From assembly GCA_964035015.1 (NCBI GenBank), contig CAXIUP010000285.1:1-64000 (forward strand): a stretch of DNA of 64,000 bases, written 5' to 3'. Positions 43,415 to 62,125 of the stretch are shown here, in pieces. Source of the stretch: Corallium rubrum. Lineage: Eukaryota > Cnidaria > Anthozoa > Scleralcyonacea > Coralliidae. How positions within the stretch are numbered: position 1 is the first letter of the stretch; the number at the start of each line of letters is the position of its first letter. Under the pieces are notes generated by a model. It was given only the letters and a program-made list of their open reading frames with translations. It was not told where the DNA came from and made no database searches. The translations under genes were made by a program, and so were the position numbers.

Positions 43415-44042
43415 GGACTCAAAGATGGCTCAATGATACCCTGCTCGTGCATCTCCTTAACTGACTTAAAAGCTTCGTCTTTCTTGCTCAGCGGCAACCT
43501 TCTTGGTTGTTGTCTCACGGGATCAGCGTCGCCTGTGTTGATCTTATGCTTAGTCAGCGAAGTTCGTCCCAAGTCATGTGGTCCTTTCGAAAAGACATCC
43601 TGAAACTCTACCAGCAGGGAATACAGCTCTTCTTTCTGGGCCGCACTTAACCCTTCGGAACTTCGTTCATAAAGATCTTTAACTTGCCGCGGTAACTCAT
43701 TACCACCAGCCTCTTAACGCTTTCGACAGTCTCGCAAGTAGCCAGTGTTCCTTTCACTATGGTTTTCGCACTGTCCGACAAATTCATTACACGAACGGCC
43801 AAGTTTGGGTAACGCAAGTCCACGACGGTTCGGGCAACTAAAACTTCGTTTGGTAATCTTCCTTTCTTTGTTGGACCAAGGCACCCCCACAGATCACTCG
43901 AGCTGTGATCTCCACATAATTCCCCGAGAATTATCGCTTCACTTCGTGGTGGTATCGAGCATGTTTCTGCGAGAAAGACCCTACGGCAACATGGATTCCC
44001 TCGTGCACCCATTCGGTGTAACGGAATCTCCTCGCTTCCAAC

Positions 44043-44044
<2 letters not shown>
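43333..44044 (-). pseudogene. gypsy-2 protease linker and RT start
   Basis: CCRRVFLAETCSIPPRSEA matches the gypsy-1 linker; LGRTSLTKHKINTGDAD and PWAAPIVLVRKK begin RT. The linker meets LINE-2's tail at 44044, where the rest of the protease is missing. Confidence 0.8.

Positions 44045-44125
<81 letters not shown>
44044..44125. repeat. (AAT)n microsatellite, LINE-2 tail
   Basis: About 27 units. On the LINE's strand this is an (ATT)n tail directly after the AATAAAG-type end AGAAATAAAGCTTTT. Confidence 0.95.
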
Positions 44126-44127
<2 letters not shown>

Positions 44128-45060
44128 GCTTTATTTCTAGAGAGTATTTAACATTATTACTATAAAAGTATTCTACCTAATGGCCCTCATATAAGTAAAT
44201 TCTAAATATATATATAATACATAAATACAAAAAATTAAGATAAGTAACAACGACATTTTACAACATGCTTACAAGAGTTACAAGAAAATTTATTAACATG
44301 GTCTACGGCAAAGTTTAAATTAATGAAAAATTATTTTAGTTTACTTTTAAACGAGCTGAGTGAATGATCATCAATACCCTTCAACTCATCAGGTAAAGAA
44401 TCGAAGAGCATTGCACCACAATAGGATAATTTAGACTTTGCCATCTCTGTTTTGACCCGAGGAAGTTTTAAATTGGTGATGGATGACCTGGTGTTTACAT
44501 CATGAGAATCCCTCAGGAACGAGAATAATTTACATAAATCTTGCGGCCAAGACGTTTTTAAAGTATTAAATACCAGAAGAATTTTTCTCATTTTAATAAG
44601 ATTATGAATAGGAATCCACCTCAATTGGCGGAATAGTTCAATAGAAGGAGCATCAGGTTTTTTATCCAGTATTAGTCTAGCGGCACGTTTTTGTAGTTTT
44701 AATAAGTCATTTAAATGCTCATTACTGGCATTACCCCAGAGAGTGCAGCAATACAAAAAATGAGGATGGATCAAAACGTAATAAAATTGAATACGACAGC
44801 GATGAGTAAGATTATTACGAATACGTTTCAACAGATATAGTCTGGAGTTAACGATGTTGTAGATATTAGTAATTTGGTGATCCCATTTAAGGTGCTGATC
44901 AAAAGTGATTCCAAGCAACTTAACAGTCTTCACTTCCTCAATAATTTTTTCGTTTAGTTTAATGACTAACGGAGAAGCATCGGGAAATTTACGCCTGGAG
45001 TATAAGATCATAGTTTTGGTTTTCTTAACGTTTAGAGCCATATTATTGAAATTAGCCCAT
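44126..45060 (-). mobile_element. LINE-2, 3' half (RT thumb and C-terminus)
   Basis: Encodes WANFNNMALNVKKTKTM, then LLGITFDQHLKWDHQ, YYVLIHPHFLYCCTLWGN, LQKRAARLIL and the C-terminal FDSLPDELKG. It is the standard part of an RT protein just after the catalytic aspartates. It begins abruptly at about 45060 next to viral DNA; its missing front half is at 60700-62125. Confidence 0.85.
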
Positions 45061-46048
45061 GAGACGTGGAATGCACATCTTTTTCTAACAAATTACTTGT
45101 TACGTCAACATTGGAGCCACGAGTAATTAAAGTTGAATCGTCAATCCCGCACAATGACGTGATTGCTCCGACAATATTAGGCACTCTTTTACCTCTCACC
45201 GTGTAAAACATTGGTTCAAATCGGAAGTTATCTGAACTGTAGTTTATGACTCTGACAGCGACTGCCTGATTTGTGCTTAGTTTTTCCTTATGTAGAAATC
45301 CACCAGTAAACCAAAGCACTACATACATGGTTCCGTCCACTCTTGTTGGTGTTGCTGACAACGCGAGTAGGTACTTCGCGTTCGTGAGAAATAACGCATT
45401 AACAAATGTTCTACAGGACAGATGATGTGCCTCATCATATATAACAAAACCAAAATCCTTAAAAGGCCTCTTTCTCTTAGTGATTGTTTGTATCGTTCCG
45501 ATAGTTATCTCCTCATTAGTGTTAAATTCTTTTTGTTGCACAATCCCAATATTTTTCAGTCCTGTATATTTTCTCACTCTTTCTACCCACTGATCAAGTA
45601 AGAATCCCTTATGAACAACAATAAGAGTCTTAACTGATAATCTATGAGCAAGATAAATGGCACACACTGTTTTACCAAAACCACAACCTACAGTGAGTAA
45701 GCCACCACCTGTCTTTGTGATTCCTTTTAAACAGTTACTTACCACTAGACTTTGGTTGGTTCTTAGCCATCCTTTAAACGGAATTTTCACAGAAGCTGCG
45801 GAAAGTAAAACCTTACCTGGCTTTCCGAAATTTCTCTCACCATAAAATCTCGGAAGGATAATGTACGAACCGCACTTACTGTATCTGTATGCTCTGATTT
45901 CGTCACCAGGACCAGTTATTGTCTTGGGTCTGTACGTTAAGTCAGAGATAGTCTTTGTTATCTTCTTCTTTCCGAAAAATTTAATCGGTACTTCGTATCC
46001 GTTATGTGTCAGCCTAGTTTCGGGTGTCGTTACAGTCACCATCATCAT
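45060..46048 (-). pseudogene. viral A18-type SF2 DNA helicase, C-terminal half lost
   Basis: ATG at 46048. An N-terminal region with LPRFYG is followed by a P-loop VGCGFGKTV (about residues 121-129), TLIVVHKGFL (motif Ia), IYDEAHH (motif II) and ALSATPTR (motif III). Motifs IV-VI, the second RecA lobe, are absent because viral DNA stops at about 45060. Related enzymes (poxvirus A18, XPB/UvsW-like) help release transcripts or open DNA. It diverges from the phosphatase gene over a 64-bp spacer. The loss of half the motor means it cannot work as a helicase. Confidence 0.83.
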
Positions 46049-46112
46049 TGTTGGTTATTATTGTTAACCACCCGTTTCACCTGTGACAATTATTTTTCTA
46101 GTTAACTAATTA
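46049..46112. promoter_or_regulatory. divergent promoter region, viral
   Basis: The 64-bp spacer between the helicase and phosphatase genes. GTTAAC occurs at 46063-46068 and 46101-46106, a few bases before each start codon. A third GTTAAC lies at 47179-47184 just before the Cys-rich gene. Calling it a promoter element is inference. Confidence 0.35.
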
Positions 46113-47087
46113 ATGCGTCGGGCATTATGCGAAGGGTACTTAACTCCACTCGTTATTCCGAAAGTTAAGAAAGTAATAGTTTTCGGTGATATTCATGGAG
46201 ACTATAACTTAGTAATAAGACTCTTACTCTTATCAGATTTGATCACAGAAACAGAGGGTCTTATAAAATGGACAGGGGAGAACACACATCTCGTACAGGT
46301 TGGTGATCAGATCGACAGATGCAGACCGACATCAGGAGTGTCATGTTATGATCTGATCACTGACAAAGACGAGGCCAGTGACATACGAATACTTAAACTC
46401 TTCACAGAGTTGGATTCTCAGGCGATACTAAGCGGAGGAAGGGTTATCAGCTTATTAGGGAATCATGAGATTATGAATGCACTTGGAGATCTGAGTTACA
46501 CCTCCCGTAAGGGGATAGACGAGTTTGTCGGATATGTTGATAATACTGGGAAAACACACCATAGTGGGATATCCGGACGGGCAGCAGCATTCAGACCCGG
46601 AGGTGAATATGGTAAGTTTCTCGGATGCACGAGAAATGTTTGTGTTATCATCGGTTCAAATTTATTTATGCATGCCGGAGTGACAGACTCTCTTAATTAC
46701 GGATTAGATGAGTTAGAAAGTCTTAATGATAAGGTCGGACTTTGGCTTTTGGGAATTTTAAAAGAAAGTGATGTGTCTGATATTATCTACGGATCAGAAA
46801 GATCGCCTTTGTGGTTAAGGACTCTTGGCCTAATACCATCAGGTAAAAGTTTGCACAGTCCTGAATGTGCTAAAAATATTAGTAAAACTATTAAATCGTT
46901 AAAAATCGGATCTATTATTGTTGGTCACACCCCACAATTACTCGGAAGTAACGAAACATGTGATGGTGCCATCTGGAGAGTTGACACAGCACTATCTGAC
47001 GCTTTTAGTAAATTCGGTTTGAAAAATAAATTACAGTTTTTAAAAATCATTAATGATAGCGAGTTTACCGTGTGTAGCGAAGACTGA
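46113..47087 (+). CDS. viral metallophosphatase (Shewanella-like PPP type)
   Basis: 324 codons, ATG start, TGA at 47085. Metal-binding motifs in order: GDIHGD (residues 25-30), GDQIDR (64-69), GNHE (116-119), MHAG (about 190) and GHTPQ (about 275). The GGRVISLLGNHE and IMNALGDL context fits the SLP branch of the PPP family, which hydrolyses phosphoprotein or similar phosphoesters with two metal ions. A viral phosphatase could dephosphorylate host signalling proteins, but the substrate is unknown. All catalytic blocks are present and the frame is intact. Confidence 0.85.
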   Translation: MRRALCEGYLTPLVIPKVKKVIVFGDIHGDYNLVIRLLLLSDLITETEGLIKWTGENTHLVQVGDQIDRCRPTSGVSCYDLITDKDEASDIRILKLFTELDSQAILSGGRVISLLGNHEIMNALGDLSYTSRKGIDEFVGYVDNTGKTHHSGISGRAAAFRPGGEYGKFLGCTRNVCVIIGSNLFMHAGVTDSLNYGLDELESLNDKVGLWLLGILKESDVSDIIYGSERSPLWLRTLGLIPSGKSLHSPECAKNISKTIKSLKIGSIIVGHTPQLLGSNETCDGAIWRVDTALSDAFSKFGLKNKLQFLKIINDSEFTVCSED

Positions 47088-47191
47088 TGACATTCCGGCA
47101 ATCATAATAAGGTTCGTAAAATTGAAATTTATGATACCGATGTCATCTAACTAAGTAAGATAATCCTGTCTCTGTTCAGTTAACGTTCCAA

Positions 47192-47740
47192 ATGTTCAGA
47201 AGATTATTTAGTAAGTTACGTAACCGGCGGAATAACACCGGATGTGTCATCAGTAAAAACTGTAGAGAGTGCGTAGCATGTAGCGCGGCATTTAACTGCG
47301 TCAGTTGCGCTGGCTGCGTGGCATGTACTGACTGTGTGGCATGTACTGACTGTTCGTCCTGTAATTCCTGTTATCTTCTCAGGGACTGTACTAGCTGTGG
47401 TAAGATACCACATAGCTCTGACGTGAAGTGTGCGTATAATCATAACTTAGGGTGTGAAAAATGCGAAAAGTGTATTAGGTGTTACGGCTGTTCGGATTGT
47501 ATTAATTGTAGTGACTGTAAGGTCTGTGAGTATTGCACTAACTGCAATGACTGTTTTAATTGTGGTAACCGTAAAAAATATTACACGCGTATTCCAGCTG
47601 TTTACAGTATCAGATGCAATAACTGTAATAGTTGTGATCATTGCTTCTCCTGTTTGGATTGTAACAGTTGTTCATGGTGTACGTACTGTGTGGAGTGTAG
47701 TAATTGCGTATCATGTATGAAATGTACCAGATGTTATTAA
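47192..47740 (+). CDS. viral protein with Cys at every third residue
   Basis: 182 codons, ATG start with GTTAAC upstream. After a basic N-terminus (RRLFSKLRNRRNN) there are 43 cysteines, nearly all at a strict 3-residue spacing (CxxCxxC), in three blocks of about 12-14. The blocks are separated by short Cys-poor linkers (around residues 72-85 and 130-146). Such a period suits a repetitive solenoid or a dense metal- or disulphide-bonded rod. I know of no named family that fits. No signal peptide is evident. The frame is intact. Confidence 0.85.
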   Translation: MFRRLFSKLRNRRNNTGCVISKNCRECVACSAAFNCVSCAGCVACTDCVACTDCSSCNSCYLLRDCTSCGKIPHSSDVKCAYNHNLGCEKCEKCIRCYGCSDCINCSDCKVCEYCTNCNDCFNCGNRKKYYTRIPAVYSIRCNNCNSCDHCFSCLDCNSCSWCTYCVECSNCVSCMKCTRCY

Positions 47741-47855
47741 CACGTAACGCATATGAGAAACCACTTTAACGAATTGCGATTCTGATCACATTATCACTGA
47801 GTAAAAGTCACGAATCAGTTTAACACAAATCGGGTTCTGATAATTATAATTATAA

Positions 47856-48407
47856 TTATAATCGTGTTTCACACTCTAAATCTTCCGTGTGTTTAATAAA
47901 GCTCTCTCTCAGGGACATAACTGTTTCTCTAACGCTAGAGGATTCTTTAACTAACGCGGCTCCCCAATCAAGAATCAACATCACCTCTTTCTCAGTGGCA
48001 TTAATTTCGTTCCCGATGTATCTTACTCTTGTCCGGCTGGTAACTGAAGCGCTTTTTGATAATCCCACCATTAAGATAGCGTAACCAGTGATTTTTGTTG
48101 CTGCATTAACACACATATTCGTAATAAGTTTTTCGTTTGGAATCCGTGATCTGACCAAATTTAACTGACGGCTTATGTTTTTCGTGCCCCGTTTAATAAG
48201 TGAAGAAAATCTGTGATTTGTTAATCCATGAGATAAGTCACTAATAAAACGCATGTTGTGCCTAATAAGATCAAGCTTGGTCCTGGCCCAATGTATATCT
48301 GTTTCGGTCTTTTCTATTTTAGTCCTAGCTAATTTAATCAACTTCCTGATGTCACTTACGACACTTATGACTTTTTTGGGTCTTCTGGCTTTGGTACGGG
48401 CTGTCAT
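47856..48407 (-). CDS. viral protein, unrecognised, helical and basic N-terminus
   Basis: 183 codons, ATG at 48407. N-terminus TARTKARRPKKV is basic and could be a nuclear or nucleic-acid-binding tail. The rest looks mainly helical, with heptad-like stretches (ARTKIEKTETDIHWARTK) and a mildly hydrophobic middle (GYAILMVG). It converges with the Cys-rich gene and diverges from the next. No family is assigned. Confidence 0.65.
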   Translation of the reverse strand: MTARTKARRPKKVISVVSDIRKLIKLARTKIEKTETDIHWARTKLDLIRHNMRFISDLSHGLTNHRFSSLIKRGTKNISRQLNLVRSRIPNEKLITNMCVNAATKITGYAILMVGLSKSASVTSRTRVRYIGNEINATEKEVMLILDWGAALVKESSSVRETVMSLRESFIKHTEDLECETRL

Positions 48408-48547
48408 ACCGCCACAAATAACAACCCGGATATCACTGATAAGAAGAGTTAATTTAACTTAACTTAACTTAATTTAACAACAAACATAAAATTGTTATTT
48501 CATTTTTGACATGTTGGTATTACATATTACATAGTGCGCATCACATA
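48408..48547. promoter_or_regulatory. AT-rich divergent spacer, viral
   Basis: Contains AATTTAACTTAACTTAACTT, about three CTTAA units, like the host array at 15696. It is the likely promoter region for both neighbours. No defined element can be named. Confidence 0.3.
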
Positions 48548-49246
48548 ATGCAGCCTGAATTAACTAATACCTCAAAGCGGGGGATGGAGATATCTGGATT
48601 CATGAGTAAAGAGCGAGAAAACATAAATCTGATAAGACATGTGTACGAAACATCAGTTAGTGATATTATTCCAAGAATCCCGAATGTCACAGATGGTAAT
48701 AATGTAATAGAGTTTACTTATCGAAGTCCCTTTAATGATGTCTATAAGTGCAGGATCACAATAGCTCCTGGTCCGTATAATATTCCGATGCTGAATGACG
48801 CTATTGCTAAGGCTCTCAGTGAGTTCGATGAAAAACAGAGTGTAAAAAACGGGTGGTGTGTGTCCGGTCGTAGGAAACCCTGGGGATTATCCGCTATTGA
48901 GCTAAGAGAGAGGAAACAATGTGCTAGTTAGTCTGAAACTGGGAATTCAGTTAGAATCATTAAGTGATGGGGTCGTGATTAAGATACCAAGTATTTATGA
49001 GAACACTTTAAAAAGAATAAGAGAAAGCAGGAAATATGATAGGAGTAAAATCTTATCCTTAGTTTTTTCCTCTGACAAGGTCACGTACGGATCCTTCTGG
49101 CCCTCGGAAGAGTGTGCGTACTAATCGGAGGCTCAGTAGAGAATAACAGGATGACACATATTCTCGTGTTTGTTGAAAAACTAGAGCTTCAAAAGGATGA
49201 GCACTATCGTTTTCTTATGGAAGGTTTGACAGTAAGTAAAAATTGA
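48548..49246 (+). pseudogene. viral gene in three frames, possible structural protein
   Basis: A first frame (ATG 48548, ends 48931), a second (48921-49124) and a third (about 49075-49246) run end to end with short overlaps and no other starts. They look like one gene of about 230 codons broken twice. The first part holds CRITIAPGPYNIPMLNDAIA, a Y-I-x-LN-x-AI pattern seen in several minor capsid and penton-like proteins. That link is a weak guess. The gene stays unnamed. Confidence 0.45.
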
Positions 49247-49379
49247 ACTAATAAGCAATAACAATCGTGATTATGTAATTTTGGAGTTATGAGTTCTAAT
49301 TCTGGGTTCCGAATCCGGGTGAGGACCGTTCGTATTTTTTACTAAAATCAGTAGTGGTGCCGTTGCCATCATTACGAAC

Positions 49380-49760
49380 ATGGCTGATGGGACAGAACTA
49401 CTCACTCCGGAGCAGACACAGAAACAAACGTTTGGACGTTATGTGTATCTTACCGGACTAAACATTGAGTGTTCCAGAGACAGGTTACGCTGGATAAAGA
49501 GTCAGATTGCGGAAATTAAGAATAGCATATATTACTTAAAATTAACTGGAATAAGCTCTGAACGGATTTCGAATGTGTTTTTCCGGTACGGTGACGTCAT
49601 GGCCATGGAAGCAAATATCTACGTGATTGATATGTTTGTCAGAGAGGCGAAATCTAACATATTAGGTATTAATAATACTGTAATCTCTAAGATGTTTGAA
49701 GATGAGATAGCTACTGTCGTTGGTACTCGTAGAGTTATTGTGAGAAAAATAAAAAAATAA
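49380..49760 (+). CDS. viral RING protein gene, first part (frame break at its end)
   Basis: 126 codons from ATG 49380, helical (DRLRWIKSQIAEIKNSIYYL). The next frame is open back to 49733, with no ATG of its own until deep in the gene. The two overlap at an A-rich stretch (AAAAAAATAAAA, about 49752-49762). A one-base shift there most simply explains the two halves. It could be a sequencing error, decay or recoding. Confidence 0.6.
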   Translation: MADGTELLTPEQTQKQTFGRYVYLTGLNIECSRDRLRWIKSQIAEIKNSIYYLKLTGISSERISNVFFRYGDVMAMEANIYVIDMFVREAKSNILGINNTVISKMFEDEIATVVGTRRVIVRKIKK

Positions 49761-51229
49761 AATCTGAAATTTATAAAATTCACTTAAAACCTAAAGAAGA
49801 TTGGGTTAATTTACCAGAGATTTATAACCAAATTGAAGAGTCCGAAGAAAGACATAACTTGCACTTTGAGAAAGGTACGTGTTTCAGATCTCTGTTAGAC
49901 CGAGGTAAAGCCGGACTAGAAAGGCTTTCAAATATCAAACTAAAGATAGACACGGCACCGTACAAAAACAAAGAAGTTACTGATAAAGACTATGTTTCTG
50001 TTTACGATGAGGACAAAAACTGGACAGTCAGACAGTACACTGTTTTTATGACTGTTTCTGCGGTGGTATCAAATCTGAATTTAAAACTAGCGAATGAGAT
50101 CGAGACTGAGAGATGGAGAGTCAAGGAAAAAATATCAGAATCCGAACTTGTGTTAGTGAAAACATATCGACTTATAGACTCGTTATATCTACTTGAGCAG
50201 GCGAGATCCAGTTACTGGGTAGTCTCACGGCCAGATGTAAGCGACATCGAGTCACTGGTGTCTCATCTGAAAAGCACAATCTCTAAAGCCATAAATCTGA
50301 GACAAACAATTAGGAATGATATTCTCGGTCTTGAGTTTTCTTTGAAGTCTGATGGTAAGGACATAGACATTAACATATGGCCAGAGGCTATTATAGCAAT
50401 AACGTCGGTGGCCTCAAACTTATCTGCAATTGGGAACAGTATTGTCAGAGTCAGAAAGTACGTAAGAGTGCTAAATGAATTAACAGAAAAACATAGCAAT
50501 GAAATATCCGAAATTGTGAAAGATAGTAAGGTCCGTGTACAAGATCTTATTAACAAAGCTAATTATCTTTGGATATGGTGTGATGAGGGTCTCAGGGCAT
50601 TGTTCGAATTATGTTTAAAATTAAAACCATTAAGAGAATTAATCGTATACGGACTCAGTTTGGCAGGGAACATATTTAAATTTTCGGATGTTCTGAAGAG
50701 AGAGAAACTGGAACTTACTCATCATAAGAGATTTAAAACAGATAGTTTTTTCACTAATTGTACTGGTGGAGCTTACTGTGACGGGGGTAGTAACTGTAAC
50801 TGCTGTAATCCGAGTGTTAACTGTCAGTTTTGTAAACACTATCATAGTGGGCATAAGGGAAAGACTTTTCCACCAGTATGTGAGTCATGTTTCGAGAAAA
50901 CAAACATGCTAGCGAAGTGTGGACATGGGATATGTGTCGGGTGTATTTTTGACAATATTATGAGTAATGGAGATTTTTTCTGTCCCAGATGTGAAAGACA
51001 CATGACAAGAGTGGTACTTATTGGTGTTGTTGGTAAAACAGAAAGAGAAATAGAAATCAGCAGTATCAAACACCAGGAAATAAGAGATCTAATGAAAAGA
51101 GTGACTTTAGGTGAAGCTTCCGAATCTGATTCGAGAAGACACAAAGTGCTAGTTTCCAAATACAAACCAAGTGTTATCAAATCGATAACGGAGTCATCTC
51201 AGTTATCATACCGTGACCACAGTGATTAA
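49733..51229 (+). CDS. viral RING-finger protein, main part
   Basis: A 456-codon frame from 49859 (TTG), but open back to 49733 as the continuation of the preceding frame. The long middle is helical and probably coiled. The C-terminal third has a Cys-rich patch (CDGGSNCNCC, CQFCKHYH). It then has a RING: CESCFEK, KCGHGICVGC and FFCPRCERH give the C3HC4 pattern of ubiquitin E3 ligases (about residues 340-385). It ends just inside the next gene. The partner and substrate are unknown. Confidence 0.75.
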   Translation, partial: SYCEKNKKIKSEIYKIHLKPKEDWVNLPEIYNQIEESEERHNLHFEKGTCFRSLLDRGKAGLERLSNIKLKIDTAPYKNKEVTDKDYVSVYDEDKNWTVRQYTVFMTVSAVVSNLNLKLANEIETERWRVKEKISESELVLVKTYRLIDSLYLLEQARSSYWVVSRPDVSDIESLVSHLKSTISKAINLRQTIRNDILGLEFSLKSDGKDIDINIWPEAIIAITSVASNLSAIGNSIVRVRKYVRVLNELTEKHSNEISEIVKDSKVRVQDLINKANYLWIWCDEGLRALFELCLKLKPLRELIVYGLSLAGNIFKFSDVLKREKLELTHHKRFKTDSFFTNCTGGAYCDGGSNCNCCNPSVNCQFCKHYHSGHKGKTFPPVCESCFEKTNMLAKCGHGICVGCIFDNIMSNGDFFCPRCERHMTRVVLIGVVGKTEREIEISSIKHQEIRDLMKRVTLGEASESDSRRHKVLVSKYKPSVIKSITESSQLSYRDHSD

Positions 51230-51281
51230 AAGTTATTTAGCACCTTATAATCCTGTTATAAGAGTTAATTATAACAGAATA

Positions 51282-52373
51282 ATGGGATTGTTAGATAATA
51301 ATCTATGTCGATTTATTATTCTCAGAAATAGAAACTCACTAATTAGAAAAGGTGTCTCAGCTTTTGTCTCGTGTCTTCCCTCGTATGGTAATAAACAATG
51401 GGGAATGTTCAATAGCGCTCTAAAGACAGTGTTAGATATGTCTGAACTTATTAAGAGAGAGAATAAAAGACTAAAAAAAGATTATATTTTCGTGTTATTC
51501 GTAGGGGAGAAATGTTCAGAGAATAGTAAGTTACACAGTCTTGCGAAGAGATGGAAGTCTTTTGTTATCATCGAAATAATTCCGAATAAAAATCACAGCT
51601 TACCACGTAAAAAACTCATCGAATGTCTGTCACCAATATTTCCGATATTCAAACTGGGTAACAATCCGGTAAGAAACGGGATTTATATCAGTCCATGCAT
51701 ACGGGAAAATGTGTATCCGAAAATAGTAACAATTATGGAATTAAGCAGGAATGGCTCAGCCGAAACAGTTGGGTCTGGAACGGTTGCAGAGTGGCTGAAA
51801 ACTGGTGACGGATTGCCATTAATGTTAAGCCGGGCATTCGGATACTCGGGTAAGAGACTCGACACCAATTTATTAGAAAAATTTGTAATGATTATCAGTG
51901 ATGACGAGATGATAAAAACTCAGAATACGTACTGTAGTCATGTACCAACTGGTGTGCTATTAAACGAGTGGATTCTACGTCTCTCGGAGTCAGTACGCTT
52001 TATCGTGTTTTATCAGATAAGTTATTTCCTATTCTATGAGAAAGAACTAATAGAAAGTCAGAAGAAAAAATCATTACTAATACTGTCAGAGATTCTCGGA
52101 CCGTATGACTCCGGTGACACCATTGAGAGTAAGCTCAAACTGATAGACAAGCATACTTATCGCGTCGGGAAGAATAAAATAACAAGCCATCTTACAGAAA
52201 ACTTCTGTAATATTATCGCTAGACTCTTAGAGAATAAAGAGGAGTGGTTATCGTGTGAGATAATGATGTTTATTAACAAAAATCTTAACAGTACTATTTC
52301 CGCAACTGTTATTTTTAACTTCAGAAACGGAAAGTTTGATAATCTTTCTGTTCTTAACAAGATAATGATTTAG
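51282..52373 (+). CDS. viral protein, unrecognised
   Basis: The frame opens at 51189. The first ATG, at 51282, gives 363 codons; a GTG at 51213 would overlap the RING gene by a few bases. It shows alternating beta/alpha segments such as YIFVLFVGEKCSE and SFVIIEIIPN, then charged helices. No catalytic motif stands out. No family is assigned. Confidence 0.6.
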   Translation: MGLLDNNLCRFIILRNRNSLIRKGVSAFVSCLPSYGNKQWGMFNSALKTVLDMSELIKRENKRLKKDYIFVLFVGEKCSENSKLHSLAKRWKSFVIIEIIPNKNHSLPRKKLIECLSPIFPIFKLGNNPVRNGIYISPCIRENVYPKIVTIMELSRNGSAETVGSGTVAEWLKTGDGLPLMLSRAFGYSGKRLDTNLLEKFVMIISDDEMIKTQNTYCSHVPTGVLLNEWILRLSESVRFIVFYQISYFLFYEKELIESQKKKSLLILSEILGPYDSGDTIESKLKLIDKHTYRVGKNKITSHLTENFCNIIARLLENKEEWLSCEIMMFINKNLNSTISATVIFNFRNGKFDNLSVLNKIMI

Positions 52374-52480
52374 TCTTAATCAGAACCATTACCAGATAAG
52401 ACCAACACCGTGTCTGAAAATCTGACCATGTGTGTTTACCCACGGATTTGTCCACTGATTCATTTACGAACTCTCCGATC

Positions 52481-52717
52481 CTAACAGCACACCCGGACGG
52501 GAATAGGCTTTGGGTTAAACCAGTTAGTAGCTTTATTGATAAGTTTATTAATAATCAAAGAAATAAGGCCAGCAGTGATTCCGAAGGAAAACTTAATAAT
52601 AATCTCTGTTATGAGTGAGTACCATGACGTAATCTGGGGATTATCATGTGGTAGGACAAATACGGACACGAGCGTGAGCATAAACATAAGCATAAACATA
52701 GATAAAAGCATCAGCAT
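52481..52717 (-). CDS. viral small membrane protein
   Basis: ATG at 52717 gives 78 codons; a GTG at 52744 could extend it. The first ~25 residues are a Met/Leu-rich hydrophobic segment (MLMLLSMFMLMFMLTLVSVF). A second hydrophobic stretch (FGITAGLISLIINKLI) lies in the middle. The tail is basic. Probably two membrane passes; role unknown. Confidence 0.5.
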   Translation of the reverse strand: MLMLLSMFMLMFMLTLVSVFVLPHDNPQITSWYSLITEIIIKFSFGITAGLISLIINKLINKATNWFNPKPIPVRVCC

Positions 52718-52789
52718 TATTAAACTAGTCACCTTGTGACACACTTTTGTTTATCAATTTTAGGCACAGCACACACTTGTAATAAATGT

Positions 52790-53869
52790 CTAATTTGTAA
52801 TCCCTTCACATAATAACACGTATCCCTTGGAGTGTAAATTTTTACTCTCCCTTAGGTAGACCGAAGCGTCATCTGCCGTGTAGTGTCTGTTATTGTCAAG
52901 TCCTTTAAAATTAGCGACATAGTGCCCACAACCACCATTTTTTTTGTGCCCTATGTGATGAATAGAAGCATATGTTCTGTATTTTGTTGGCCCAGCTCCG
53001 TTAGGGTCACAGTATTCTGTAAGATCCAGGGTTTCACAGTTCGTGACATATCCGGAATCATACTCTGCTATTAGCACTACGAGTATTTTAGGTCTGCTTA
53101 CCAATCTCGAGTTAAGTTTAACTGTACCAGAGCCACAAGATTCACATTTGAATCCATCAAGAGCTGACTCCCCAAATCTGTCACTGATACAATTTGCGAT
53201 ATTGGTAACGGCACCGAGTGGTCTAAGAATTAACACATCCTCTCGACAGAATTTTTGTGTTTCCCCGTCACAATTAGAGCAACTGATTATTTCCATTACG
53301 GATCCGAAGAAGGCATCAGTATACACTGACTTAGTGTTTCCGAATTCTGCTTCCATAAGAAGAGATGTTCTCGCTAATAGGTACTCAGATCTATTATTTG
53401 TCTCAGTTTCTTTTAGTAATAATTTTGTTCCAGTTATGATCTCACGGTCTTCTGTACTGGATAATATTTTTAACTGATCTCTGATATGATCGAATTTTTT
53501 CTGGTTAGTTTCAGTAATGTGAGTTTCTCTATGTACTATGTTAAGCACAGCTGATAGAAACTCCTGGGCATCCTGTTGTCCCTCAGCAAAATTAGGAATT
53601 GTGCTTCTGTATGTTTTACAAAACGATAGGGGGGTGAGAATTGGGTCCCCGTCACCGGCAGCCCTGAACAGGCGTAATAACTGATACGTCACGGTATCTT
53701 CTATCTCTTTGTGAAAGCCAATATTCCTTCCGATTCTCTTAGGGATATCTCTGTTAAGGAAGTACTCTCTGAGACATTTCGTTGCTAATAAACACTGTAG
53801 TGCAGAATTACTGTAACAACTCTCTTTTATGTTATTAATACCACAGACACCATGTTTTTCAATAGACAT
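52790..53869 (-). CDS. viral ubiquitin-specific protease (USP family)
   Basis: 359 codons, ATG at 53869. The Cys box GINNIKESCYSNSALQCL gives a nucleophile at about Cys18 (canonical GLxNLGNTCYMNS). QQDAQEFL follows (about 98). A four-Cys zinc pair is formed by CSNCDGE and CESCGSG. The His box GGCGHYVANF has His at about 316, with Asp at about 333. These are the catalytic residues of C19 deubiquitinases. It would remove ubiquitin from host or viral proteins. The length is short for the family, so it is a core catalytic domain. Confidence 0.88.
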   Translation of the reverse strand: MSIEKHGVCGINNIKESCYSNSALQCLLATKCLREYFLNRDIPKRIGRNIGFHKEIEDTVTYQLLRLFRAAGDGDPILTPLSFCKTYRSTIPNFAEGQQDAQEFLSAVLNIVHRETHITETNQKKFDHIRDQLKILSSTEDREIITGTKLLLKETETNNRSEYLLARTSLLMEAEFGNTKSVYTDAFFGSVMEIISCSNCDGETQKFCREDVLILRPLGAVTNIANCISDRFGESALDGFKCESCGSGTVKLNSRLVSRPKILVVLIAEYDSGYVTNCETLDLTEYCDPNGAGPTKYRTYASIHHIGHKKNGGCGHYVANFKGLDNNRHYTADDASVYLRESKNLHSKGYVLLCEGITN

Positions 53870-53968
53870 AACTGCGTTAGGTATTAAAGTAAGCCATGAG
53901 ATACTTTGTCACTATATCAAGTTATAATAATCAATCTTATTGTGGGTAAATAACAATTTTATTACTGA

Positions 53969-55924
53969 TTACACATCATAATTAAGATTTTGAAAGTATC
54001 TCACGATCTTATTACATGTTTCACCAACTAGTACTGATCCGTGCATGTTATGTCTTTTTACACCTGCCTCTAGTAAAATCTTATTTTTTTCAGCGTCAAG
54101 TTTCCGTGCATACCTACGAATAAAATCAAGATAATGGTTTACCGAACTAACAGTCTCGCCTTCTTCAAATGAAACAAGTGCGCTCACATTCTCCCGCTCT
54201 AATGAGCCTCTCATGAGTTCCTCGACATCAGTATCAGGGTTAGAAAGCACTATTTCAAGAAACCATATCGCCCACGCAAGACAGTAACCGGATGGGTCCC
54301 CGATATTCTGTCTCAGCTCAGTCACGTCATCAGCTGACTGAAATTTTGATCCTCCGAGAAAGCTCTCCGGGGGTCTGTATTTTATCTTACCGTAAATAGA
54401 AGTGTAATAATTAATCACGAAATCGTTAACACCAGTCAGGTCTTCATATCCGTATGGTTCAAAAAGCCATAGGGTTTTTTCTCTTCTGTCGTAAATAACG
54501 CAGTTAATATGAAGTGACATACTCTGAACTATTGTAATACTAAGTAAAGTGTATCTCTGTGTTTCAATAGGTACATTCTTATCGTGTTTTATTAATAATT
54601 CTTTGTGTTTGTCACTCAGAAAATACCGTGTGCTATCCACCCATGACAGCCAGAAAGTGTGATGCGTATAAAATGTTTTTATCATATTTCTTACGTAACT
54701 TTCCATAATTGCGGACGCAACACATGTTGGAAAAGAGGCTATTTTACAAAGATTACACTCTGATCTCATATCCTCAGCGTTAAAAGGGATCACAGGGACA
54801 TATAGGTTCTTATACGTTCTCCGTATGTACTCAATATACAGCACAGAGTGAGCGAATGTGTACCCGAACAGGCCATAATTACCAGTGCTTCCGTCAGTTC
54901 CCCCGGGTTTCACAACCTGCACAGATGCAGTTGTCTTTAACAGCTCACCTTTTAAATCTTCTAAGGTCTCACTTACTTTTCCTGCTTTTGCGTAATCATA
55001 ACAGTTCTTATTCTCAGGGTCCCTTACCTCCAGATCGACATAACGCCCTCTAATAGAACTAATAAAATCAACCCACATATTAGTTTTGAACATTCTGTGA
55101 GCTGAGCTATAACCAGCATAATCTGTTCTGTCAAGATCAGTATGATTTATTAACAACTCTACCGATTTCTGACTTAACCTGTGTTTATTATGATAAAGTC
55201 TTGCTGCAAGATGTAAGTAACTTTCGAGATTATTTGTTGTTTTCGAAGACAGTAAGTACTGACGTCCGGCATCACTCTCGGTTTTGAGATGTTCTTTCAT
55301 AAGATCAATTGTTAAATCAGCAAGTCTGATTTGTGATGTCTGTAAACATAAGATAATGGGTCTGCTATTATGATCTGAACAAAAATTAACGGTATCAAAT
55401 CTCTTATCAGGCGGAAAATTACTAATATGGCTAATAATTATTTCCGACATTTTTTTACACTTGTTAACTATTGACCATGATAAAGGTGACAACGTATCGG
55501 GTCCGAATATGAGCTCAAACCCTTTGTCAAGAACTTTTGAGACAAAGCGGCAGCACCCGAGAGCAATTGCGTCAAACATAGTCTGTCTGCGATTAGAGAT
55601 GTGAAAAATTCTTAACGCAATTCTAAGGTATCTGTCCCGGTTATCACCATCGGCCTCTGACATCGAGAGCATACTTGCCAAGCTGCCTCCTTCTAGGATA
55701 TTAAGCATGTCGGTGCAGTCATAATCAGAAATAGTGTTAACTGCTTTTTCTAAAGCATTAATATTTCCAGTAATGTAAGACAGTATTGACACACCATTCT
55801 TATCAAGCTGACATACTGATCTTTCAGTTAGAAAGCTAATTGAGTCCCCTCCGTATTTGTAGTAAAGATGTAATCCAGGCTCGCCATGACAGTTGGGAGC
55901 GGAGATATCTATGTCGCGCCCAAC
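53969..55924 (-). CDS. viral ankyrin protein with Ulp1-like protease-like domain, main part
   Basis: A frame open from 55924 to the stop at 53969 (607 codons from a GTG at 55792). The front half has degenerate ankyrin repeats (LSPLSWSIVNKCKKM, LESYLHLAARLYHNK, YAGYSSAHRMF). The last third shows H in HINCVIYD, LFEPYG, Q in SKFQSADD and C in GYCLAWAIWFLE. This is the H...E/D...Q...C order of C48/adenain-type cysteine proteases. It is a paralogue of the next divergent gene. An N-terminal piece lies in another frame. Confidence 0.72.
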   Translation of the reverse strand, partial: VGRDIDISAPNCHGEPGLHLYYKYGGDSISFLTERSVCQLDKNGVSILSYITGNINALEKAVNTISDYDCTDMLNILEGGSLASMLSMSEADGDNRDRYLRIALRIFHISNRRQTMFDAIALGCCRFVSKVLDKGFELIFGPDTLSPLSWSIVNKCKKMSEIIISHISNFPPDKRFDTVNFCSDHNSRPIILCLQTSQIRLADLTIDLMKEHLKTESDAGRQYLLSSKTTNNLESYLHLAARLYHNKHRLSQKSVELLINHTDLDRTDYAGYSSAHRMFKTNMWVDFISSIRGRYVDLEVRDPENKNCYDYAKAGKVSETLEDLKGELLKTTASVQVVKPGGTDGSTGNYGLFGYTFAHSVLYIEYIRRTYKNLYVPVIPFNAEDMRSECNLCKIASFPTCVASAIMESYVRNMIKTFYTHHTFWLSWVDSTRYFLSDKHKELLIKHDKNVPIETQRYTLLSITIVQSMSLHINCVIYDRREKTLWLFEPYGYEDLTGVNDFVINYYTSIYGKIKYRPPESFLGGSKFQSADDVTELRQNIGDPSGYCLAWAIWFLEIVLSNPDTDVEELMRGSLERENVSALVSFEEGETVSSVNHYLDFIRRYARKLDAEKNKILLEAGVKRHNMHGSVLVGETCNKIVRYFQNLNYDV

Positions 55925-56091
55925 TCAGAGGCTGCGATAATTTTTCCAACGGCAGTAGTGTCCGCCCTCGCACATGCCAGATGAAAAATATTATTACAAC
56001 CATCAACAAGCGTGTCTTCCTTATTTTTGAGTGCCAAGAGAGCGCCGTCCCAATCACCAAGGTTAATAAGCCTCATACAGTCGCTGGACAT
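55909..56091 (-). CDS. N-terminal piece of the preceding ankyrin gene
   Basis: ATG at 56091 gives 60 codons (DCMRLINLGDWDGALLAL, NNIFHLACARADTTAVGKII) with a clear ankyrin-like helix pair. The frame then stops at 55909. The other frame takes over in a 16-base overlap (55909-55924). A one-base shift here would link them. Confidence 0.65.
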   Translation of the reverse strand: MSSDCMRLINLGDWDGALLALKNKEDTLVDGCNNIFHLACARADTTAVGKIIAASELGAT

Positions 56092-56160
56092 TTATACACT
56101 ATGTTAGGAGAGTCAGTTAATAGCAACTATTTGACAGTAAGGTTCGGGATCTCAATTATA
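56092..56160. promoter_or_regulatory. divergent spacer between the two ankyrin genes
   Basis: A 69-bp AT-rich gap between two ATG codons that point apart. It is the likely shared promoter. An open frame that crosses it from 55840 is spurious. Confidence 0.4.
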
Positions 56161-58359
56161 ATGTCAAAAACTGTTCTACTTTTCAAAAGTCTTCGGAATC
56201 ACAAATGGGATGACGTTAGGGAGTTACTGTCAGGGGCGAATATTGATCTCAATGTTAAAAACAGATATGGCGACTGTGCTTTATCTTATGCTGTTAAATT
56301 CAACAGACCAGATATGGTTAGTTTGCTAATAACTAATGGTGCAAGATATGACTCTACCGACCGGGACGAAAGACCAGTTTTATGCGAGGCTGTTAAGTAC
56401 GGTTACGAACAGATAGTCGAAATATTACTTAATGCCTCAGATAACGGAGTCGGGATGCCAGTTGTGAACATCGCTGACAAAAACGGACTAACCCCAATTC
56501 ATTATGCGATAAAGTCTAATAACATTAATCTTATCAAAACACTTGTCGAAAAAGGATCAGATTTATACAGAGCGAATAACAGCGGTCTTAATGCTTTTCA
56601 TATGGCAACTAAACACGGCGCAGAAGAAATGGTGAGGGTATTAATCAAAGAGTCAGCGAAAAGCCAGCGATCAGGAAAGAGTGAACGAATTTTAGACACA
56701 AGGACAGCAAATGGTGAGACTGCGCTTTTCATAGCTGTGAAAAGACAGAGTGAAGAGATAGTAAGTACCCTTCTCAAAGAAGGGGCAGATCCTAACACAC
56801 CAGAAAAAGATAGAGATCTCACACCAACCCATATAGCTGCTAAACTTAACAACTGTGAAATTCTGAGCTTGCTTCTTGAAAACGGAGCGTGCCCTGATAG
56901 ACAGGACAGATGGGGAGATGTCGCGTTAATGTCCGCTATTAGGAACAAAAGTATTCCGTGTTTTAACGAAATTATAAATCACTCTCCAAATCTTAGGTTA
57001 TGGAATAACAATGGCGAAACTCCACTTCATGAGGCCCTTAGTTCTTACGCTAGCAATAGTGCCGTGTCATCGTTTTTCACTGACGCCCTTATTTCGGAAT
57101 CCGGAGTCTCCATACAGAATTCTGAGGGTAACTCATGTCTTCATTATCTGATAAGATTAGGAATATGGAAAGAGTACAGGAATATTCTAAGCACTAAAAG
57201 AATGAATATCTTTGCGAAAAACACAAACGGTGAGAGAGCCATTGACTTATGCGAGAAAGACGATATTAACGACTTAATTGATTTAACAACTGTTAGTTAT
57301 CTCAATTTGTTAAGAACTGACACAGAATGGAATGACGAGTTAGACAGGATCTGCTCAAGTGATAAAATTACTGAAACTGATAAAAAAAGACTGATGGAAC
57401 TGGGTGGTGGAGATCCGAGAGTCGCTTGTTCGAACCTTATCAAAGAAAGATTAATCAGAGGAATGGAAAGCTCGGCTGTTGTTTCGTACCCGGTCAGTAG
57501 AAAAGTAGTTATAGGCGGACAACCTGATGTCGGGTTTTGCACATTCACAGGATCATTCATCGATATTTTCACGGGATTAACCTATTTACTAAGTAAGCAT
57601 AGGAACACTGGCTCAGTAATTTCGACAGCGGGCTCAGGAGCCGATAACCTTAGCCATCTTTACAAAAGAATAGGGTATCAGTCCGACTGTATTTGTGGTT
57701 TTATCGGATTTGAGATGGTTTGGGCCGATTGTAAGTTATATGTAGTTAATGACTTCCCGAAGCTTCTTACTGATTGTGTTGACAGGAAAAAATTTGTTAT
57801 CTTTCCTCTCGCTATTGAGCTCAGAACCGGAGCTCACGCTAATTATCTTATTTACGACACTGAGTTAAAAGAGCTTGAAAGATTCGAACCACATGGTGGT
57901 TTACCAGGTAAGTACTTCGGCTCGGACGATTTGGATAACTCTATTGTTGAGTTATTCACAGGAATAATAGATGATATTAAATATTTCCAACCATCATCAT
58001 ATCTTCCGAAAATGGGATTCCAGGTTTCGGATACATCTGAAGTTTGGTGTCACAGAATTGGTGACCCAAAGGGATTCTGTGCCTTATGGTGTGTGTGGTA
58101 TGTTGATATGAGACTCACGTACCCGTTGTACAGTAGAAGCACACTTGTGACATTACTACGTGAGGAAGTCAGCTCGAGAGGTTTAACATTCAGAGACGTG
58201 ATACGGAATTACTCGAAAGAAATAACGGTAAAAAGAGACAGAATTCTAAGGAAAGTTGGTCTTGATATTAATAACTGGTTAAATAGTAGTTATACCAGTA
58301 GTCAGATTAAAACGCTTTTCTCTCTTCTCAGAAAGGAGCTTATTAACGCTTTCCGATAA
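56161..58359 (+). CDS. viral ankyrin-repeat protein with Ulp1-like protease-like domain
   Basis: 732 codons from ATG 56161. About nine ankyrin repeats (residues about 20-365) such as NGLTPIHYAIKSNNINLIKT and NGETALFIAVKRQSEEIVST. The C-terminal third has HANYLIYD (His about 561), RFEPHG (Glu about 575), GFQVSD (Gln about 620) and DPKGFCALWCVWY (Cys about 640). The order and the GFC/GYC box match the paralogous neighbour. Such proteins would use ankyrins to find a partner and a cysteine-protease fold to cut or bind it; activity is unproven. It overlaps the helicase gene by 81 bases at the 3' end. Confidence 0.82.
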   Translation: MSKTVLLFKSLRNHKWDDVRELLSGANIDLNVKNRYGDCALSYAVKFNRPDMVSLLITNGARYDSTDRDERPVLCEAVKYGYEQIVEILLNASDNGVGMPVVNIADKNGLTPIHYAIKSNNINLIKTLVEKGSDLYRANNSGLNAFHMATKHGAEEMVRVLIKESAKSQRSGKSERILDTRTANGETALFIAVKRQSEEIVSTLLKEGADPNTPEKDRDLTPTHIAAKLNNCEILSLLLENGACPDRQDRWGDVALMSAIRNKSIPCFNEIINHSPNLRLWNNNGETPLHEALSSYASNSAVSSFFTDALISESGVSIQNSEGNSCLHYLIRLGIWKEYRNILSTKRMNIFAKNTNGERAIDLCEKDDINDLIDLTTVSYLNLLRTDTEWNDELDRICSSDKITETDKKRLMELGGGDPRVACSNLIKERLIRGMESSAVVSYPVSRKVVIGGQPDVGFCTFTGSFIDIFTGLTYLLSKHRNTGSVISTAGSGADNLSHLYKRIGYQSDCICGFIGFEMVWADCKLYVVNDFPKLLTDCVDRKKFVIFPLAIELRTGAHANYLIYDTELKELERFEPHGGLPGKYFGSDDLDNSIVELFTGIIDDIKYFQPSSYLPKMGFQVSDTSEVWCHRIGDPKGFCALWCVWYVDMRLTYPLYSRSTLVTLLREEVSSRGLTFRDVIRNYSKEITVKRDRILRKVGLDINNWLNSSYTSSQIKTLFSLLRKELINAFR

Positions 58360-60703
58360 TTTAAGATCTCTGCGTATTAAATGAGTTATCATTGATATGC
58401 CTTTGGGTCCAGTTATAAGGTGTACTGTGTGCCCATAAAGGTAAATAGTATCAACAAATGTTTTGGCAGTTTTCTCTCCAGGAAACTTCGCGAATTCAGT
58501 TGTCACATTTGAATCTGATTCTGATTCTGATTCTGATTCTGATTTCGGGTTAGGATTACGAACGTAAACTCTCAGACCACACTGATCACTGCCCATAGTC
58601 ACGTTATGCGGACATGTTAATAACACAGCTGCTTTTTCATATGGAATATCTAATCTCTTGATAAGATCTCTCACTTTAGCAAGAGAATACCTAACTGCGG
58701 ATTTTACTTCTGGTTTAACTGTGGCCAGACCATTGTTAATGCTCAACGGCTCCTTGAGCCACCGACCTCTTGCTTTACGGAAAGCCAGTATAATATCAGG
58801 ATTCACCGCATCATCACTTTTTGTGATTATGCTTTCTGCTATCTCCATAATCGCAGATATGTCAGAACTGATTAACCCTCTGCGCCTCTGTTTTATTTTC
58901 AAAACTTGCTGTTGCGGGAAAACCCCTTTTTTAAAGTTAACATTTAACAATCTGTTGATATCGAGACCAATAATGTCGAGAAGAATAACAGCATTAAGAA
59001 ACTTATTAAACTGACTCGCGTCTGAGAGACCAAGACCGAAAAATAACAATCTGGTAAGGAGTTCACTTTCAATCGAAACTAATAATGAAAAATCAGTCAT
59101 ACACCCCCCAAGATCAGTTCTGTATCTGTCCTTTGTCACAATACCTTCAGCCATTAGCAATCCCCAAAATGATTCTAACTTCACCGAGTTAAAAACCCCG
59201 TCAACAACAGCCCCATTATCTGAACTTACTATCTTACCAGTGATGTCTCTTTTTATCCTCGTCTCGTCCGGATGAATAAGATAAAAGGAGCCGGACTCAT
59301 CCGTGAGTGTGGATGGTGAAAGTCCATTTTTTGTCTTATGCGGAAGTTTATCATTTTCATAATCGTAAAACTCCTTATTTCCCCTGTACGGGTAGAAGAT
59401 CCCGTCCGTGGTGTACGACCGTAGAAAAATATCCGCAACCTGCTTAGTTAGCATTAATCTTATTTTCTTTTCTGTGATATTCTTATTTCCACCAGCGAAC
59501 AACATAAGAGAGTCAGAAATCGCTAACTTGGAATCCTTAGAAGATGATACTAACATTGAGATTACTGAATGGCATATGTTTTGTGTTGCTATCGGAAACA
59601 TTTTCTCTTTTCCTTCTAATGCGCCTTTTTGGTAAGTGTAATACGCAATACCAGAACTGGTCCTACCGACTCTCCCTCTCCGTTGTAATCTGCTTGCTTC
59701 TGTAACTAAACCCAAACTTAATGTGTTTATTCCACTTACCGGATTATAAATCATAGTCTTTTCAGCGCCAGTATCCACAACAAACTTCAATGTTGAAATT
59801 GACACGCTAGCTTCAGCAATATTTGTAGCTACTAACACAGCCCGTGAGTATTTGCTATCACCAATACACACATCTGTGACAGGAGTGTCTGCGAACTTAA
59901 CAGTTCTGTTTATTTTAATTAAACTAATCGTTTCGGAGATATTCTTAATTAAGTTTTTATGACCATCAGTTAATCTCGCGTAATATGGTAACGCTATTAT
60001 TCCGTGCGGAAGTCCAGTCGGAATATTAAGATCAGACACCGCCTGGTCTATCTCCTTTGACCCTGGCTGAAATAATAGTAAGTCACCTATTTTTTTCTCC
60101 CTCATGATACGTAATACTAACTGAACCGGATCCGCGTTAGGGATGTAAATATCCTGAACAGTGAATCTGGTTGTCGCACCCGGAGGTGATATGTGAATAC
60201 GTCTATCAACATTGACTCTGTCAATCCCGTGTTTGAATATCCACCAGGATAATGGATATTTTCTATTATCATTAATTTCTCTGAAATGTCTTCTGTAGGT
60301 CGCTTCGTCACTGTCTATTGTCGCGCTCATGATAATTAGCTGAACACTGTTATTGATATACAGTGGAGTTTTAATAATAGATAAAATCATATCCATATTA
60401 ATATTGTGCTCATGCGCTTCATCAATGATAAGAATATCCGCACTATTTTCCCACACTGGATCACCATTAGCATCTGTTTTTTTAAAAAGAGGATCGCGGA
60501 TGTCACGGAAAATAGAGCCATCTGTCGCATAGAGTATCTTTGGGATAGCAGCGTTACTAATATGCTTGTCACCCATATGACGAAACTGAACATAGTAATT
60601 ATCTGTTCTCTCCGCACCTACACCCGCTTTAGTTCCACCCTTTTCATATGGTAAGGCCATTTCCTGTGCAACCCACTTACTGACACTAGTTGCGACATTT
60701 ATC
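58279..60703 (-). CDS. viral DExH SF2 helicase (NPH-II/DEAH type), start lost
   Basis: About 805 codons remain. The first recognisable part is ATSVSKWVAQEM (motif Ia). DEAH (about residue 97), SAT (about 128), a motif V region (VLVATNIAEASV) and QRRGRVGR (motif VI, about 340) follow. The P-loop is absent because viral DNA starts at about 60700. The C-terminal ratchet-like region is kept, with an acidic Ser-Glu repeat near residue 730. It would act on RNA or RNA-DNA. Without a P-loop it cannot hydrolyse ATP. Confidence 0.84.
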
Positions 60704-62125
60704 GTCCGCAAACAGAAATGGACTCGAGTCAGTCAAACACAAGGGGAGGTCATTGATATAAATCAGAAATAAAAGGGGTCCTAGAATCGAACCCTGCTGT
60801 ACACCGGATTTGATAGAAGCTGGATTTGACAAAGTAAATTTGATTTGCACTCGATGAGTACGGTCCGTTAAATAAGATTTAAACCATTCAAGAGCCAACG
60901 GAGAAATACCGTACATTATTAGTTTATAAATTAGAATTTGATGGTCAACAAGATCAAACGCTTTGGAGAAATCAATTGAAGTCATGCCATTCATTTGACC
61001 TTGTTCAATACTATCCAAAAGGTACTCGTAAATCATTATAAGGGAAGACTCGCAAGAATGTTGGGCTCTAAAACCATGTTGATGTGGCGAAAGAATATTA
61101 TTAAATAGCAAATAATTCATATATGAATTTGAAACATGTCGTTCAAGTACTTTTGAGATAACTGCTAAAAGAGAAATGGGTCTATGGTTTCCTCTTTCTG
61201 TCCGCTCTCCTGTTTTGTAAATAGGAATCAGTTTAGCTTTTTTCCACATTTCTGGGAAAATCCCAGAGTCAATGCTCAAATTACATATCCGAAGAATAAC
61301 GGGAGCTATAGAGTTAACCGAAATCTTGACAAAGTAAGCTGGAATGCCATCAAGACCAGTTGCCTTGTTCGAATCCAAGTCATATAATAGTTTAATTACA
61401 TCAGTAATGTTCATTAAAGGAATAGAAAACTTGGATTCACAGGTACTTATACTATTAAGATATGGGTAGTTTTGATTTGTTTGAATAGTTATGCCAAGAT
61501 TTTCAGTAATAGAAGAAAAGTATGCGTTGAAAAAATCACTGATGTCTTTGGGGTCAGTGATCTTTATGTCATCGACAATTAAAGTTGATGGAGGTGGAGT
61601 AAATAAAGCTGGAGGGTAAGATATTTTTTAGAATTTTCCATAGCTGGCGTGGATTATTAATGTTATCAGTTAAGAGTTTTTTGTAGTATGAATTTTTGGA
61701 TTTATTAATAATGTGGACTGATTTGTTTCTCCAACTTTTATACTGATACCAGTGATTGGAATTTTTAGTCTTAAGATATAATTTAAGAGTTTTATCTCTT
61801 TTACGTCCCGCCTCACGAATTGAAGAATTATACCAACCAGGTAAACGGTTGGAGCGAGCTCTCCTTTCTACTAACGGAGCATGATCATTAAGAACTTTAA
61901 TGAAATGAGAATGCCAAATTTCTAACAAATCGTTAGGGTTATCAAAGATTTCAAAGACATTCTGGGGAATACCCAGAAGATCATCAAGAAAAAATATATC
62001 CAGATTCTTAGATCTACGGTATTTAATGGTATGATGGCAATCAGGTTTATCAAGATTTCGAGCATTAACTTTTCTAGTAATAAAAATCGGCAAATGATCG
62101 CTTAAACCAATGGGAAGAACCCTAG
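60700..62125 (-). mobile_element. LINE-2, 5' half (endonuclease end and RT to FADD)
   Basis: Starts with the end of an AP-endonuclease (GLSDHLPIFITRK), with a frame change at 61420-61570. The RT follows: GFRAQHSCESSL, TSIDFSKAFDLVDHQILIYK, GVQQGSILGPLLFLIYINDL and FLFADD. It ends abruptly at about 60703. The continuation, from about 27 residues further on, is at 45060. The 5' end of the LINE is truncated at about 62125. Confidence 0.85.

Follow-up and report, generated by a model that had tools for sequence, protein, structure and literature searches.

A 15.6-kb fragment of a giant virus, probably mimivirus-like, inside a LINE of Corallium rubrum

The window, a stretch of 64,000 nucleotides, comprises the first 64 kb (1–64000) of the Corallium rubrum contig C292 (551,857 bp), which belongs to an assembly of 474,352,983 bases in 312 contigs that also holds the contigs C54 and C106. 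Between two halves of a LINE lies a block of densely packed open reading frames (ORFs), located on both strands and with no evident introns. The features of the block and of its immediate setting are as follows.

44040–45142, minus strand: LINE 3′ half (thumb region, ATA-repeat tail at 44044–44125), from assembly copies and the tail
45137–45142, unstranded: left copy of the 6-bp direct repeat ATCGTC, interpreted as a target-site duplication; single at the empty site
45143–60700, unstranded: viral insert, 15,558 bp, missing from the colinear contig C54
45143–46048, minus strand: first 302 codons of an A18-type (XPB-like) helicase; the C-terminal helicase part is absent and the ORF continues for 36 LINE codons
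46113–47087, plus strand: calcineurin-like metallophosphatase (PF00149; bacterial phosphatase structures)
47192–47740, plus strand: cysteine-rich repeat protein, no family
47856–48407, minus strand: ORF of 183 aa, no Pfam family
48548–48931, plus strand: ORF of 127 aa, weak match to DUF5901 (E 0.11)
49380–49760, plus strand: ORF of 126 aa, no family
49859–51229, plus strand: RING-finger protein, ATG at 50048 (PF00097, E 2.2e-4)
51213–52373, plus strand: ORF of 386 aa, ATG at 51282, no family
52790–53869, minus strand: ubiquitin carboxyl-terminal hydrolase, USP type (PF00443, 100.8 bits; USP15 structures)
53969–56076, minus strand: 702-aa protein in its open form; in the window the frame is broken near the start, leaving a 607-aa ORF at 53969–55792
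55840–58359, plus strand: ankyrin-repeat protein (PF12796)
58279–60700, minus strand: DExH (NPH-II/HrpA-like) helicase; the N-terminus with Walker A is absent
60701–60706, unstranded: right copy of the 6-bp direct repeat ATCGTC, from the junction comparison with the empty site
60701–62119, minus strand: LINE 5′ half (endonuclease end, reverse transcriptase to FADD), from RVT_1 and assembly copies; 62119 is the furthest point common to the LINE copy on C13

ORFs of at least 100 aa that begin with ATG cover 0.871 of the block (45080–60697), versus 0.095–0.465 of five equal-sized windows to its left and 0.42 of the 3.3 kb to its right. This bears out an earlier note on the same DNA, which had singled out the block by its gene density and lack of evident introns. 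Base composition and CpG frequency, considered as possible signs of viral origin, were rejected because the block resembles its left flank in both (G+C 0.385 versus 0.391; CpG observed/expected 0.90 versus 0.99). Searches with Rfam and ARAGORN returned two tRNA-like genes only. Elsewhere in the window, a 110-bp tandem repeat occupies positions 1–289, at the very end of C292, and a second, distant LINE with a frame break of its own lies at 5484–7723 (42.7% amino-acid identity in the reverse transcriptase).

Half of the 12 block ORFs have no Pfam family at E ≤ 0.01, although a match at 0.11 exists for one of the six. None of the 12 matched an integrase, DNA polymerase or protein-primed polymerase family in Pfam, and the same searches found neither a capsid protein nor polymerase marker genes in the fragment. 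The C-terminal domain of the ankyrin-repeat protein shares 28% identity with that of the 702-aa protein. The cysteine-rich protein consists of short repeats, and its length differs in the C106 copy. Judged from the reading frames only, a gene at 48548–49300 seems to be broken into pieces in different frames downstream of the 127-aa ORF, which is perhaps its front part.

We asked whether the two LINE halves are parts of a single element. The LINE reverse transcriptase half has at least 41 matches in the assembly, including one at 99% on C54. This contig is colinear with C292 over 73770–60701 and 45142–33888, with nothing between and at 91.7–99.5% identity, and therefore carries a whole LINE at the same place on another contig. 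Six LINE-bearing stretches were compared, namely this empty site and five further copies. The empty site and four of the further copies (on C248, C13, C20 and, as L114, on C1) are continuous across the junction at 89.6–99.4% identity; in the fifth (L116, also on C1), the right half is matched, but only 69 bp of the left half. Since C54 shows this locus in a block-free state, the two halves belong to one LINE, and this LINE was already present before the viral DNA entered, as had been proposed. The search for an intact LINE lacking the viral block at the matching site was thus successful. A plain diploid would not be expected to yield three contigs for one locus, and further matches to a probe from the right flank lie on C156, C53, C2, C277, C37 and at other places on C54; C54 may therefore be paralogous. 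Be it allele or paralogue, this contig preserves the pre-insertion state.

Comparison with the empty site places both boundaries to the base. The minus-strand sequence of the empty site is GCG-GACGAT-TCAACT, and in the window GACGAT is found at both ends of the block. Because GACGAT occurs once at the empty site and twice in the window, the insert spans exactly 45143–60700 and is flanked by a 6-bp repeat, with zero LINE bases lost. The earlier note had described a 15.6-kb piece of a large DNA virus inside a LINE, and this description is upheld by the empty site on C54; the LINE halves do lie on one strand and in the right order. Its account of the junctions, on the other hand, has to be revised. 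The left boundary had been put at 45060 but actually lies at 45142/45143, the interval 45060–45142 being the LINE stretch that follows FADD. The apparent loss of about 27 LINE codons is an artefact: the codons are present and had been read as the tail of the viral helicase. The small deletion suspected at the junction is replaced by a 6-bp duplication with no loss. Similarly, a left junction at 45071–45079 with about 25 lost codons, as estimated from the distant LINE in the window, is ruled out by the close LINE copies.

Both genes at the ends of the insert are truncated. Homologues of the A18-type helicase extend a median of 188 residues beyond the alignment (119 matches). The alignments end at or before residue 302 in 95 of the 119, at 303–310 in 11 and beyond 310 in 13; we take the 24 that run past 302, into LINE-coded residues, as chance extension. 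The structural model of this ORF has a mean pLDDT of 80.3, with values below 50 at residues 308–317 and 319–338, in the LINE-coded tail. At the other end, the homologues of the DExH helicase (mean pLDDT of the model 63.7) have their Walker A motif upstream of where the gene in the window starts. No terminal inverted or direct repeats were found at the ends of the insert: the inverted-repeat local score over the end 300 bases is 10, a value that 482 of 500 shuffles also attained. The insert represents part of a larger entity and not a whole mobile element.

How did this piece enter the LINE? We give about two chances in three to the following scenario. A staggered double-strand break would have arisen inside the pre-existing LINE, in the germ line or in a cell ancestral to it, and a linear piece of a mimivirus-like (Imitervirales-like) giant-virus genome would have been captured at the break. 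Filling in of the 6-nt overhangs would then have produced the 6-bp duplication, and end joining would have closed both sides with nothing lost. The observations underlying this scenario are the cut end genes, the whole LINE at an otherwise matching site, the base-exact ends, the 6-bp repeat and the absence of terminal repeats; from them we infer the staggered break, the linear state of the fragment at joining and the cause of the break.

The 6-bp repeat itself could argue against staggered-break capture, as it could represent microhomology. In that case, a viral end in GACGAT (minus strand) would have been joined at the same LINE bases at a blunt break, so that nothing was duplicated. The resulting sequence would be identical. 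Moreover, an aspartate occurs at or near the breakpoint in several A18 homologues, and part of the six bases could accordingly be viral. On the other hand, an end repeat of 6 bp or longer arose by chance in just 0.20% of 400,000 simulated random insertions, although microhomology-mediated joining would select such matches. We regard this explanation as unlikely, but it is the main rival to capture at a staggered break.

Polintons leave 6-bp duplications, and the clean ends and zero loss also fit the action of an integrase or transposase supplied in trans by the virus, a virophage or a Polinton-like element. Of the Polinton/Maverick features, the 6-bp duplication is present, whereas terminal inverted repeats, integrase and protein-primed polymerase are absent. 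An enzyme acting in trans would have had to insert a fragment without terminal repeats and with both end genes cut, and the 12 ORFs include no integrase or DNA polymerase family. Enzymatic integration in trans has no positive evidence in its favor and seems quite improbable. The location within a LINE and the short duplication might also suggest that the LINE machinery retroposed a viral transcript into the site. However, the genes of the block lie on both strands with DNA between them, and neither end of the insert bears a poly-A or repeat tail. Retroposition is already contradicted by the two-strand gene content, and we give it practically no weight. Capture of a linear fragment at a staggered break thus remains our preferred reading.

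We next considered the origin of the captured DNA. For the DExH helicase, 2,278 matches were found among 7,994 scored candidates, the best being an environmental protein at 414 bits and 36% identity. The source name of one environmental match (P0070) says viral metagenome. The same helicase reaches 79.6 bits against solved structures and only 45.9 bits against its own genome outside the block, where the best matches are DEAH-type helicases. A DHX37-like gene of the assembly reaches 974 bits against structures of DHX37, a vertebrate protein, and 624 bits against Dhr1 of yeast, as would be expected of an animal or a close relative of animals. The A18-type helicase has 133 matches (best non-self 219 bits, 38% identity; solved structures 51.5 bits), and in its own genome there is no match at E ≤ 0.001 beyond the two block copies. 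To judge from these sequence comparisons, the viral genes do not resemble those of the host. In searches of the assembly, the A18 and DExH proteins were found solely in C292 and C106, as was the 607-aa protein, except that the ankyrin protein of the block has a similar domain. Among 6,319 candidates, the sole match of the 607-aa protein was its own open form.

The earlier note had recommended comparing the viral proteins with giant-virus sets. In Foldseek searches against viral models, mimivirus-like proteins came out on top for both helicases. For the A18-type helicase these were from LCMiAC02 (33% identity) and Hokovirus (29%); for the DExH helicase, proteins from Moumouvirus (21%), an environmental member of Megaviridae (23%) and Bandra megavirus (34%) came first. 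Iridovirus and African swine fever virus proteins ranked lower, at 14–24% identity. The top names for the two helicases presumably all belong to Imitervirales. The named top structural matches thus suggest a mimivirus-like (Imitervirales-like) virus, the DExH model being of low confidence.

Scans of viral contigs with single proteins gave, relative to the number of pattern matches, 0 of 14 matches for the DExH helicase, 1 of 14 for the A18-type helicase, 3 weak ones of 6 for the phosphatase and 0 of 2 for the ubiquitin hydrolase. Alignment-based scans gave 1 of 75 for the DExH helicase and 0 of 113 for the shared C-terminal domain, while with the A18 alignment 219 of 564 pattern matches were recognised as relatives, of which the best 80 were kept; some of these may be phage helicases. 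When all block ORFs were searched against 85 viral loci (L001–L085) at E ≤ 1e-3, no locus carried two block genes; 79 matched the A18-type helicase only and one the DExH helicase only. No match to the capsid family PF04451 was obtained in the assembly, but the control was positive in 0 of 14 genomes, so this result does not show that a capsid gene is absent.

The insert is present in a second contig of the assembly that contains C292. C106 (116,734 bp) carries it with both junctions identical to those of C292 over 61 bp, but lacks 434 bp (window 45991–46424) comprising the 5′ portions of both the A18 and the phosphatase gene. The frame of the 702-aa protein, broken in the window, is open in C106, and the open form is also represented by P0121, on a 7,760-bp Logan contig. 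The left junction is spanned by P0122, a protein of 336 aa on a separate 3,176-bp contig that is identical to residues 3–338 of the helicase–LINE fusion; P0122 may derive from the same reads as the assembly. For the ORF at the right junction, no identical public protein was found among the best 120 of the 2,278 matches.

These copies bear on the concern that the block is an assembly chimera, in which viral reads from an infection or a contaminant were misjoined into the LINE. LINEs are repetitive, and the similarity between C106 and C292 around the block is unusually high. Yet two contigs with diverged flanks share the same junctions, the block is flanked by a 6-bp repeat, and P0122 carries the left junction in another contig. 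We therefore consider a chimera very improbable. Viral genes with host sequence on both sides, as expected of a viral element in a nuclear genome, are found on two contigs with both junctions, together with the matching empty site.

Differences between C106 and C292 were counted in colinear alignable stretches only. They amount to 4 of 15,181 sites in the insert; 5 of 4,048 and 15 of 8,483 to its right; 195 of 6,060 far right; 54 of 3,070 near left, with zero in the 44–46 kb bin; and 210 of 3,753 far left. The outer flanks diverge by 3–6%. In this locus, a low-divergence tract of about 28 kb (C292 44–72 kb; less than 0.3% per 2-kb bin) is centred on the insert. The contrast between 4 of 15,181 sites in the insert and 3–6% in the outer flanks means that the two copies of the insertion are close relatives and that the event was probably recent. 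Their common ancestor is much younger than the average for the locus. Any one of three processes would account for the low divergence: a partial sweep, gene conversion, or a single haplotype having entered both contigs. The closeness of the two copies, coupled with the mostly open genes, suggests a young event. It is conceivable, albeit doubtful, that the germ line of this animal is, or until recently was, infected by a mimivirus-like giant virus, which became endogenous so recently that the empty site still segregates, while the segment with the insertion has spread. C106 also contains an insertion of about 10.8 kb (C106:71596–82424) with 250-bp terminal inverted repeats (99.2% alike), a PIF1-like helicase gene and a 7-bp repeat, GTTCAAT, at both edges. 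It is missing at C292:64743–64749 and on C54, and represents a further recent mobile element next to the viral block.

Giant viruses of sturgeon and arrow worms are known. The locus described here offers a direct view of the entry of giant-virus DNA into a nuclear genome and points to an undescribed giant virus that probably reached an animal germ line. The base-exact ends, the empty site and the two insertion copies together allow the insertion to be dated. In the literature as far as it was accessible, we found no description of a mimivirus-like fragment located within a LINE, which does not mean that none exists. Giant-virus DNA in animals is rarely reported. A mimivirus-like case is named for Hydra vulgaris (PMC5294986). 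As in the present locus, giant-virus genes of mimivirus affinity reside in an animal genome; here, however, the ends are base-exact and an empty site exists, and the accessible part of that report does not mention a LINE.

Other known systems share some of these features, as far as the accessible parts of the respective reports go. African swine fever virus-like elements of Ornithodoros ticks (PMC7542975) are likewise fragments of a large DNA virus that reside in an animal genome and, as here, adjoin mobile elements and show possible target site duplications. They derive from another virus group, and in our case the empty site proves the LINE to be older. Endogenous nimaviruses of crustaceans (PMC10871703) also represent a large DNA virus in animal genomes, one lineage having a target site duplication (an 11-mer, in 28S rDNA). 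In contrast to our fragment, in which no integrase was seen and for which the probes find one locus, nimaviruses carry integrase genes and are found repeatedly at chosen sites. Giant endogenous viral elements of protists, such as those of Euglena gracilis (PMC12455990), are likewise giant-virus DNA in a nuclear genome and partly eroded, but there the host is a protist and, according to the abstract, transposons invade viral DNA, whereas here the virus invaded a transposon. The coral insertion is thus a further case of a kind known from Hydra, ticks and crustaceans, with an unusually exact anatomy.
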